Virus record (IMG/VR): IMGVR_UViG_3300046355_000273
Coordinates: 1-27,167 of that record
Strand: one strand, 5' to 3'
From: a virus
DNA length: 27,167 nucleotides
The notes under the pieces are model-generated. The model worked only from the letters and a program-made list of their open reading frames with translations. It was not told where the DNA came from and searched no databases. A program made the position numbers and the translations under genes. Within the stretch, counting starts at the first letter, position 1. Each line of letters opens with the position of its first letter. Below are positions 4,459 to 8,335 of the stretch, piece after piece.

Positions 4459-4478
4459 AAAATTCTAATTGCCATTAT
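4459..4478 (-). repeat. Dispersed repeat B, inverted copy
   Basis: The minus strand reads ATAATGGCAATTAGAATTTT, identical to the plus strand at 2428-2447. It begins at the last base of the tRNA-Thr CCA and fills most of the gap before the endolysin start, so it lies in the endolysin leader. Confidence 0.7.
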
Positions 4479-4553
4479 GGTGCTGGTTGTAGGACTTGAA
4501 CCCACTGCCTTCTCATTACAAGTGAGATGCTCTACCAGATGAGCTAAACCAGC
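4478..4553 (-). tRNA. tRNA-Thr (anticodon TGT)
   Basis: Full cloverleaf, 76 nt with encoded CCA. Acceptor GCTGGTT pairs with AACCAGC (7 bp), then discriminator A and CCA. D stem GCTC/GAGC. Anticodon stem TCTCA/TGAGA encloses the loop CTTGTAA, anticodon TGT, reading ACA. T stem GTGGG/CCTAC (one G-T pair) with loop TTCAAGT. It lies 2 bases after tRNA-Ala and just before the endolysin gene. Confidence 0.95.
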
Positions 4554-4555
4554 AC

Positions 4556-4633
4556 TGGTGGAGGTAGTCAGGATCGAACTGACGAAACCTTTTGCATGCC
4601 ATGCAAACGCTCTCCCAACTGAGCTATACCCCC
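4556..4633 (-). tRNA. tRNA-Ala (anticodon GGC)
   Basis: Acceptor GGGGGTA pairs with TACCTCC (one G-T), then A and CCA. D stem GCTC/GAGC with loop AGTTGGGA. Anticodon stem TTTGC/GCAAA with loop ATGGCAT, anticodon GGC (reads GCC and GCU). T stem GTCAG/CTGAC with loop TTCGATC. The variable loop is 7 bases (AGGTTTC), slightly longer than usual. The sequence otherwise looks like a normal proteobacterial tRNA-Ala(GGC). Confidence 0.95.
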
Positions 4634-4643
4634 ATTAAAAAAC

Positions 4644-4672
4644 ATTATATAAAAATGTATTAGTATTGGCAA
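4644..4672 (-). promoter_or_regulatory. Promoter for tRNA-Ala, tRNA-Thr and the lysis operon
   Basis: -35 TTGCCA (4672-4667), 17-bp spacer, -10 TATAAT (4649-4644), followed by G as in the structural-gene promoters. Transcription would begin a few bases before tRNA-Ala. Confidence 0.75.
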
Positions 4673-4673
4673 A

Positions 4674-4710
4674 TAAAAAAATCCCCAGAAATATTTCTAT
4701 AACTGGGGAC
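4674..4710 (-). terminator. Rho-independent terminator ending the short transcript from 4768
   Basis: On the minus strand TCCCCAG (4709-4703) pairs with CTGGGGA (4688-4682), and AAATATTT in the loop can extend the fold. A T-run follows (4681-4675). It stands between the promoter at 4768-4796 and the tRNA promoter. Confidence 0.85.
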
Positions 4711-4761
4711 TTAAGACTTAGAAAGGATCAGTCTACTCAAAACTTTATTCTTATTATTATG
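4675..4761 (-). ncRNA. Putative small RNA 1 with anti-SD-like loop
   Basis: A perfect-consensus promoter (4768-4796) and a strong terminator (4674-4710) enclose about 85 nt with no convincing minus-strand reading frame. The predicted RNA has a 5-bp hairpin AGACT/AGTCT (4734-4730 with 4718-4714) whose 11-base loop presents GATCCTTTCTA. ATCCTTT is complementary to the AAAGGAT ribosome sites of the capsid gene (22370) and the helix-turn-helix repeat gene (6038). GATC...CTTTCTAAG also resembles the 16S rRNA 3' end. The ends are predicted, not measured. It could instead be an attenuated leader. Confidence 0.5.
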
Positions 4762-4767
4762 GGTTTA

Positions 4768-4796
4768 ATTATACAGACATTTTAATTTTCTGTCAA
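4768..4796 (-). promoter_or_regulatory. Perfect-consensus sigma70 promoter for small RNA 1
   Basis: TTGACA (4796-4791), 17-bp spacer, TATAAT (4773-4768). The -35 hexamer begins at the base after the stop of the 413-residue gene. There is no minus-strand gene between it and the terminator. Confidence 0.85.
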
Positions 4797-6038
4797 TCAT
4801 TTTTTCCATAGCATATTCAATAAATTAATTGGGTTAGATTTAATCTTTTCAATATCAATATCTTGAGTAAGTGATGGATCTTTAATTCCACTTGTAACAT
4901 CTTTATATATTTTATTCTTTTTAATTTCATAAAAAATACCTTCACTAATTCCATATTTTTCACAAGCATCTTTATAATATGTTAATTTTCTAATCTCTCT
5001 AACTTGCTCATCAGTCAATTTTCTATGTTTATTTATTAATGGTCTTTTAATTGGAATATAGTCAGGGTCAACATTATATTTATTAGCTAATATATCCCAA
5101 ACATGATTTTTTGAAATATCAAATTTTTCAGCCAATTCTTCAACTGATAATTTACTGGTTCTAATTTCTTTAGCATCTTCCATTGTAAGTTTTGGCTTCC
5201 ATCTAACTCTTGGAGTATAATTTGGGTCAAAATAAGTTTTATTATTTCTTATTAAGACAATGGTTGAAACACTAACATTATAAACTTTACAAATCTTTTT
5301 ATTAGCCATATTGCTATCTCTAATAAACTTTACTTCTTCATCTGTAAACTTTCTTGCTTCTTTTTTGTTAGGGTATAATGATTTTACAACTTCTCCAGTT
5401 TGAAACTTTTTAATTTTATCTGCTCTTAATCTTTGGATATATCCAGAATGAACACCATAAATTTTAGCAATTTCTCCATTAGAAATATCGGGATTTTCTT
5501 TTATATATTTAATTTGAGATTCAGTAAAATTAACATCTCTTTTCTTAGGTCTTGGTTTATACATTGGATCATAGTGGCTATCATTATTAACAATTAAAGT
5601 AATAGTAGATTGACCTGAATTAAACATTTTAGCTAATTCAGTAATATTATATTTTCCATTGGCATATTCTTGACGGATAAAATCAACTTGTTCTTGATTA
5701 AAATGTTTACCTTTTTCTTTTTTGAAAAAATCTTCAGTAAGATTAAAAACTTTATCTTTTTTCTTATAGGTTGGTTTTTCTCGTTTTATCTCATTACCAT
5801 CTTCATCCCAGTTATAACTATAATCTTCATCGTGATAAACACCAGTATTATTGATAACATGATAAATAACAGTAACAGAACAATTAAATTTATTACAAAA
5901 CTCTTTAACAGAATATTTATCAATATTTTTTCGAATAAATGCCACCTCTTCATCGTTTAAGATTTTTCGTGCAGCATTTATTCGTCTTGAGTTTTCTATC
6001 CATTCCTCGTTACTAAAATATTCTTTTTTCTCTTCCAT
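4797..6038 (-). CDS. Tandem helix-turn-helix repeat protein (six repeats)
   Basis: This 413-residue protein is built of about six related units near residues 27-68, 113-157, 170-208, 230-270, 283-324 and 340-379. Each follows LT-EQV--IR, then a short recognition-helix pattern (E/K-LA-KF-VS-STI--I), often ending N-K-Y-DP-Y. The units look like the small HTH repeats (LTEEQVREIR type) attached to phage HNH and other homing nucleases, but no nuclease motif is seen. Linkers are basic (KPRPKKRD, RVRWKPK). It probably binds an extended DNA site as an array; specificity and role are unknown. The start has AAAGGATTAATCTATG. The promoter of small RNA 1 begins at its stop codon. Confidence 0.75.
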   Translation of the reverse strand: MEEKKEYFSNEEWIENSRRINAARKILNDEEVAFIRKNIDKYSVKEFCNKFNCSVTVIYHVINNTGVYHDEDYSYNWDEDGNEIKREKPTYKKKDKVFNLTEDFFKKEKGKHFNQEQVDFIRQEYANGKYNITELAKMFNSGQSTITLIVNNDSHYDPMYKPRPKKRDVNFTESQIKYIKENPDISNGEIAKIYGVHSGYIQRLRADKIKKFQTGEVVKSLYPNKKEARKFTDEEVKFIRDSNMANKKICKVYNVSVSTIVLIRNNKTYFDPNYTPRVRWKPKLTMEDAKEIRTSKLSVEELAEKFDISKNHVWDILANKYNVDPDYIPIKRPLINKHRKLTDEQVREIRKLTYYKDACEKYGISEGIFYEIKKNKIYKDVTSGIKDPSLTQDIDIEKIKSNPINLLNMLWKK

Positions 6039-6234: not shown

Positions 6235-6438
6235 TTATTCTCCTTTAAATTGTTTAGCATCTTTGACTTTAATGGTAAAATTTACAGCTTCGCCATTTTT
6301 GAGTTCTAACATTCTCAATCTTTGCTCTAAATCTTCCTGCCTATCTAATAAAGTTTGAATTATTTTATGTTGAGCATCTAATAACTGGTAAACCAATACC
6401 ATATCTTTAGCAAAGAATTTTAAAAATAATGCTTTCAT
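6235..6438 (-). CDS. Small coiled-coil protein, 67 aa
   Basis: MKALFLKFFAKDMVLVYQLL and onward: a short hydrophobic N-terminus, a heptad-like central helix (DAQHKIIQTLLDRQEDLEQRLRML at about 21-44) and a charged end (KVKDAKQFKGE). The ATG overlaps the TGA of the preceding 47-residue gene (ATGA). Not recognised. Its upstream neighbour has a similar make-up, so the two may be diverged copies or partners. Confidence 0.6.
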   Translation of the reverse strand: MKALFLKFFAKDMVLVYQLLDAQHKIIQTLLDRQEDLEQRLRMLELKNGEAVNFTIKVKDAKQFKGE

Positions 6439-8219: not shown

Positions 8220-8230
8220 ATAGTAGAAAA

Positions 8231-8260
8231 AAGAAAACCCCCAGTTTTTTAAGCTGAGGG
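8231..8260 (-). terminator. Rho-independent terminator ending small RNA 2
   Basis: On the minus strand CCCTCAG (8260-8254) pairs with CTGGGGG (8244-8238), with one T-G pair and loop CTTAAAAAA, followed by TTTTCTTTTTTC. Confidence 0.85.
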
Positions 8261-8300
8261 TATCTTTACACTATTAAGGAGGTCATGAAAAATCATAACT
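8232..8300 (-). ncRNA. Putative small RNA 2 with exposed anti-Shine-Dalgarno
   Basis: Promoter (8307-8335) and terminator (8231-8260) enclose about 70 nt with no minus-strand gene. The predicted 5' end begins with the hairpin GTTATGA-TTTT-TCATGAC (8299-8282), followed by a mostly unpaired CTCCTTAATAG and then the terminator hairpin. ACCTCCTTA (8283-8275) equals the 3' end of typical bacterial 16S rRNA. CTCCTTAATAG (8281-8271) is perfectly complementary, over 11 bases, to the ribosome-site leaders of the relaxase (CTATTAAGGAG, on the minus strand at 1256-1246) and the 130-residue gene (7221-7211). The plus strand could encode a 12-residue peptide here, an alternative reading. Ends are predicted only. 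Confidence 0.55.
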
Positions 8301-8306
8301 GTTGGT

Positions 8307-8335
8307 ATTGTAGGGCAATTTAAAATAAAAGTCAA
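8307..8335 (-). promoter_or_regulatory. Promoter for small RNA 2
   Basis: TTGACT (8335-8330), 17-bp spacer, TACAAT (8312-8307). The -35 overlaps the stop codon of the upstream coiled-coil membrane gene, as at 4796 for small RNA 1. Confidence 0.75.

Follow-up and report, generated by a model that had tools for sequence, protein, structure and literature searches.

A candidate short-RNA gene with its own promoter and terminator, linked to two tRNA genes in a tailed-phage fragment

The promoter-terminator unit and its surroundings

The phage fragment analysed here (hereafter the window) comes from an IMG/VR record, measures 27.2 kb and has a GC content of about 30%. Nearly all of its genes lie on the minus strand, among them those for terminase, portal, capsid and tail proteins, small genes, a gene for a protein with an array of helix-turn-helix (HTH) units, two tRNA genes and a lysis cassette. 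The latter follows the tRNA genes and comprises an M15 endolysin, small membrane proteins and Rz-like and Rz1-like spanins. The capsid protein is distantly related to that of phage VP882 (26.8%), and a search for a host genome via the terminase gave no match. The coordinates of the features discussed are collected in Table 1.

The TGA stop codon of the HTH gene occupies positions 4799-4797 of the minus strand and promoter P1 begins at the very next base. The initial annotation had described a perfect-consensus promoter immediately behind a stop codon, with a strong terminator downstream and no minus-strand gene between them; promoter and terminator are both present and no protein gene was found in the interval. 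Such an arrangement is rare by chance. Two promoters matching the consensus at 12 of 12 positions occur in the window against a mean of 0.08 per shuffled sequence, and two at once were seen in none of 200 shuffles. With units required to combine a promoter scoring 10/12 or better and a strict intrinsic terminator behind it, the window contained one (the P1 unit, 4796-4675) and 100 shuffles contained none. The two 12/12 promoters (7257-7229 and 4796-4768, both minus) have the spacer pattern TTGACAnAAAnnTAAAATGTCnnTATAAT in common, the TGTC half of which is lost from the second in a related phage described below; an operator in the P1 spacer was also considered and set aside, as its GACA...TGTC dyad is lost in that phage.

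Transcription from P1 would yield an RNA of about 85 nt. The region possesses both a promoter and an intrinsic terminator of its own and holds no reading frame of note, as expected of a small-RNA gene. A 9-codon frame starting with TTG, TTGAGTAGACTGATCCTTTCTAAGTCTTAA, is a leader-peptide candidate that comes without a clear ribosome site. An attenuator was rejected, since inspection of the upstream sequence revealed nothing with which an arm of the CCCCAG/CTGGGG stem could pair instead. The -10-like element ATAATAAT lies within the first bases that would be transcribed, in the window and in its relative alike; a -10-like element in this position is a feature of promoters with sigma-dependent pausing. 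A second promoter had also been noted directly behind the unit, and it is there (P2). What had been missed is that P2 lies in front of genes for tRNA-Ala and tRNA-Thr. The commonest codons of the phage are GCT (244) and ACT/ACA (201/134), and the tRNAs it encodes carry the anticodons GGC (Ala) and TGT (Thr).

Table 1 Features of the locus and its neighbourhood, with positions in the window
Feature	Position	Strand	Remarks
TrwC-type relaxase in tailed-phage genome	3-1238	minus	PF08751, 2.5e-44
tRNA-Thr (anticodon TGT)	4478-4553	minus	its 3' end marks one limit of the conserved block
tRNA-Ala (anticodon GGC)	4556-4633	minus	
Promoter P2, TTGCCA-17-TATAAT (11/12)	4644-4672	minus	in front of the tRNAs; hexamers kept in the relative
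Intrinsic terminator, TCCCCAG-14 nt-CTGGGGA + TTTTTTT	4675-4710	minus	7-bp stem and 7 T; hairpin kept in the relative
Predicted RNA, ~85 nt	4675-4760	minus	start predicted at ~4760; 48-nt 5' stretch identical in the relative
Small hairpin, AGACT-GATCCTTTCTA-AGTCT, anti-SD-like loop	4714-4734	minus	drawn from the sequence; ~-3.7 kcal/mol, no better than shuffles
Promoter P1, TTGACA-17-TATAAT (12/12)	4768-4796	minus	TTGACA 4796-4791, TATAAT 4773-4768; hexamers kept in the relative
Conserved cassette, P1-RNA-terminator-P2-tRNA-tRNA	4478-4797	minus	genes on both sides differ in the relative
Protein with array of HTH units	4797-6038	minus	PHROG D5-like regulator, HNH/homing endonuclease-like matches
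Unit 1, promoter TTGACT-17-TACAAT (10/12), terminator CCCTCAG...CTGGGGG	8225-8335	minus	short promoter-terminator unit

Conservation of the cassette in a related phage

A single relative was found, the 38.4 kb IMG/VR contig IMGVR_UViG_3300035670_008251 (G001), whose terminase is 98% identical. Over 20.9 kb of backbone the two phages share 95.9% identity. A separate match, at 88.8%, corresponds to the block 4478-4797, which is bounded by the CCA end of tRNA-Thr and by the promoter edge. Upstream of the block, the HTH gene is missing from G001 together with the next gene, and the gene at 6235-6438 has a shortened homologue there whose 3' end overlaps with P1. Downstream, a DNA methyltransferase gene present in G001 only (L089:15641-17197) is placed between the tRNAs and the endolysin. 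Because both flanks change in G001 while the block persists, the RNA unit appears to go with the tRNAs rather than with the HTH gene, and the P1 edge of the cassette coincides with the recombination junction. At the position of the relaxase, G001 carries a longer, divergent TrwC-like relaxase.

Within the block, both promoters retain their hexamers unchanged, the differences falling at 4 of 17 spacer bases in P1 (76% identical) and 3 of 17 in P2 (82% identical). In the terminator, where identity is 85%, the hairpin is retained despite indels and a changed loop, and the whole RNA of G001 folds at -23.7 kcal/mol. The longest unchanged run in the block is 48 nt and corresponds to the 5' part of the RNA (P 0.07 under random placement of the differences), which by itself is not significant; the second longest, of 43 nt, covers the P2 -10 element and the start of tRNA-Ala. 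The anticodon stem of tRNA-Thr is not the same in the two phages. In this one comparison, the pattern of conservation fits constraint on the promoter, the RNA body and the terminator, and it argues for a putative constrained RNA gene tied to the tRNAs.

Searches for homologues of the RNA among viral contigs (with three patterns), genome contigs, phages and plasmids returned G001 only. The P2-tRNA start yielded no relative beyond G001, a sequence model run over 81 records behind related terminase and endolysin loci found no further homologue of the RNA, and no relatives of the HTH gene were detected among viral contigs. A 34-nt match in a Campylobacter plasmid (E 0.01) was not taken as homology, being short and inside a type IV secretion gene. 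No Rfam family reached its own threshold with the RNA; NsiR1 (RF02399), whose gathering score is 39, was dismissed at 24.7 bits, the similarity residing mainly in the terminator.

The small hairpin, its loop and the neighbouring unit

The whole predicted RNA folds better than shuffled sequences (z -2.5), which is the contribution of the terminator. The initial annotation had proposed that a small hairpin in the 5' part displays a loop complementary to ribosome-binding sites. This hairpin can be drawn; it is not established, because the 51-nt region that contains it folds no better than shuffles, 142 of 200 of which folded as well (z +0.6). The AAAGGAT sites to which the loop was said to be complementary are present before both genes named, at 6038 (HTH) and 22370 (capsid). 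The likeness of the loop to the 16S 3' tail is confined to CCTTTCTAAG, and the CCUCC core of that tail is absent. Small RNAs with anti-SD loops are recognised by exposed loops that contain CCUCC, whereas the loop here is GAUCCUUUCUA and its hairpin is non-significant. A comparable case is offered by the anti-SD small RNAs of Rhizobiales with their CCUCCUCCC loops (PMC3927594), where, as here, a pyrimidine-rich loop could meet ribosome sites; the present RNA differs from them in having one weak hairpin and no CCUCC motif.

The match between the loop and start regions depended on the length of the words compared. With 5-mers, 17 of the 32 start regions had a complement in the loop, where shuffled loops averaged 5.5 (P 0.003); for 6-mers there were 4 matches against 1.4 (P 0.13), and 7-mers matched 2 of the 32 start regions against 0.32 (P 0.07). 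For the 5' part of the RNA paired with start regions from the two phages, duplex energies were at the level of shuffles (best -21.4 against -19.4 +/- 2.2; P 0.52 for the overall mean). The anti-SD reading of the 4675-4760 RNA is weak, and the SD-like match of the loop is a weak lead as a clue to targets. What had been presented as a designed short-RNA unit is upheld by the chance controls and by the keeping of the cassette in G001, whereas support is weak for the role assigned to it in anti-SD pairing with the genes for the capsid and HTH proteins.

A further promoter-terminator unit, unit 1, had been taken as sharing the layout of the P1 unit and as forming one system with it. The layouts are similar, but the unit 1 promoter scores 10/12 and its terminator fails the strict test; the two RNAs, when compared, proved unrelated in sequence, which lends no support to a single system. 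Unit 1 is identical in G001. Its RNA contains ACCTCCTTA, an exact anti-SD, and is perfectly complementary over 12 nt to the SD region of gene 7204 and to that of gene 1238. The duplex energies of its 5' part with start regions gave a best-five mean of -23.9 against -16.4 +/- 1.2 for shuffles, a value reached by none of 300, and its exact k-mer counts were no higher than those of shuffles. On the plus strand the same DNA reads as an SD followed immediately by an ATG (AAGGAGGTCATG) and a 12-codon frame. If either RNA acts as an anti-SD RNA, unit 1 is the better candidate.

Possible roles of the short RNA

We give an even chance to the reading that the unit is a stand-alone short-RNA gene, sharing a cassette with the genes for tRNA-Ala and tRNA-Thr in front of the lysis genes. 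An RNA polymerase of the host type would initiate at the consensus P1, synthesise about 85 nt and halt at the strong terminator. P2, right behind the terminator, would transcribe the tRNAs separately, so that the short RNA would be an independent product and something more than a leader. The RNA would presumably act in trans. Roughly its first 50 nt, predicted to be largely single-stranded and the same in both phages, might pair with a host mRNA, a phage mRNA or a host small RNA, and the terminator hairpin and U-tail would give the molecule stability.

Possible, though rather unlikely in our estimate, is that the RNA is the leader of a late operon of the lambda PR'-tR' ('6S RNA') kind, in which transcription would stop early at the terminator and later proceed by antitermination into the tRNAs and lysis genes, leaving the RNA as a by-product of a timing switch. 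The locus resembles a lambdoid late leader in its succession of strong promoter, short leader, terminator, tRNAs and lysis module. Phages L and Sf6 have the same order of late promoter, tRNA genes and lysis module (PMC8022706), M15 endolysin, Rz and Rz1 are located downstream here, and the -10-like element early in the transcript of both phages is in keeping with this reading. The lambdoid arrangement is departed from, however, in that a second promoter with conserved hexamers stands between terminator and tRNAs and would bypass the terminator, in that the upstream gene is not the same in the two phages, and in that the lysis genes come after the structural genes and not before them. No antiterminator of the Q type (PF03589, PF06530) was found in the G001 contig, which may be incomplete, although several unrelated types of phage antiterminator exist, at least five in all (PMC8022706).

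The locus could instead be a plain operon boundary, which we regard as unlikely: the terminator would close an upstream late transcript, P1 and P2 would be tandem promoters of the tRNAs and the short RNA would have no function. Terminators do stand between other gene blocks of the phage (e.g. at 18267 and 20423), promoter-like sites are abundant in AT-rich phage DNA, and the start-region duplex energies, being at chance, give no target signal. Yet a perfect promoter placed before a strong terminator would be useless to the tRNAs unless the terminator is read through; the unit also stays with the tRNAs despite the changed upstream gene, and the 5' part of its RNA is the longest unchanged run of the block. 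That the RNA is an anti-SD RNA, its loop GATCCTTTCTA covering the AAAGGAT ribosome sites that precede the capsid gene and the HTH gene, seems very unlikely. Those two sites and the excess of 5-mer matches favour it, but neither the 7-mer counts nor the duplex energies bear it out, the displaying hairpin is non-significant, the CCUCC core is missing, and the 48-nt stretch of the RNA is unchanged in G001 even though the HTH target is missing there. These four readings are not mutually exclusive, and the anti-SD RNA overlaps the stand-alone RNA gene.

Among known systems, RNAC and RNAD of phage T4 are cut from one tRNA precursor, unlike the RNA described here, which has a promoter and terminator of its own. 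By position they are the closest known objects, likened by location alone: both are small RNAs that T4 encodes within its tRNA region, and their role is unknown (PMC3014915). VpdS of phage VP882, a trans-acting small RNA (reviewed in PMC12197685), is likewise a short phage RNA, the likeness being one of type alone. A further reading, which we hold to be quite doubtful, is that the locus represents a mobile phage cassette in which a self-terminated, trans-acting small RNA and tRNA genes form a transferable unit, the RNA tuning phage or host translation alongside the tRNAs.

If the RNA is not transcribed as predicted, the locus would be an ordinary late-operon boundary. If it is, the cassette would provide a tRNA-linked phage small RNA with its own promoter and terminator, and a simple case in which to approach the role of uncharacterised small RNAs, such as T4 RNAC and RNAD, that are encoded in the tRNA regions of phages.
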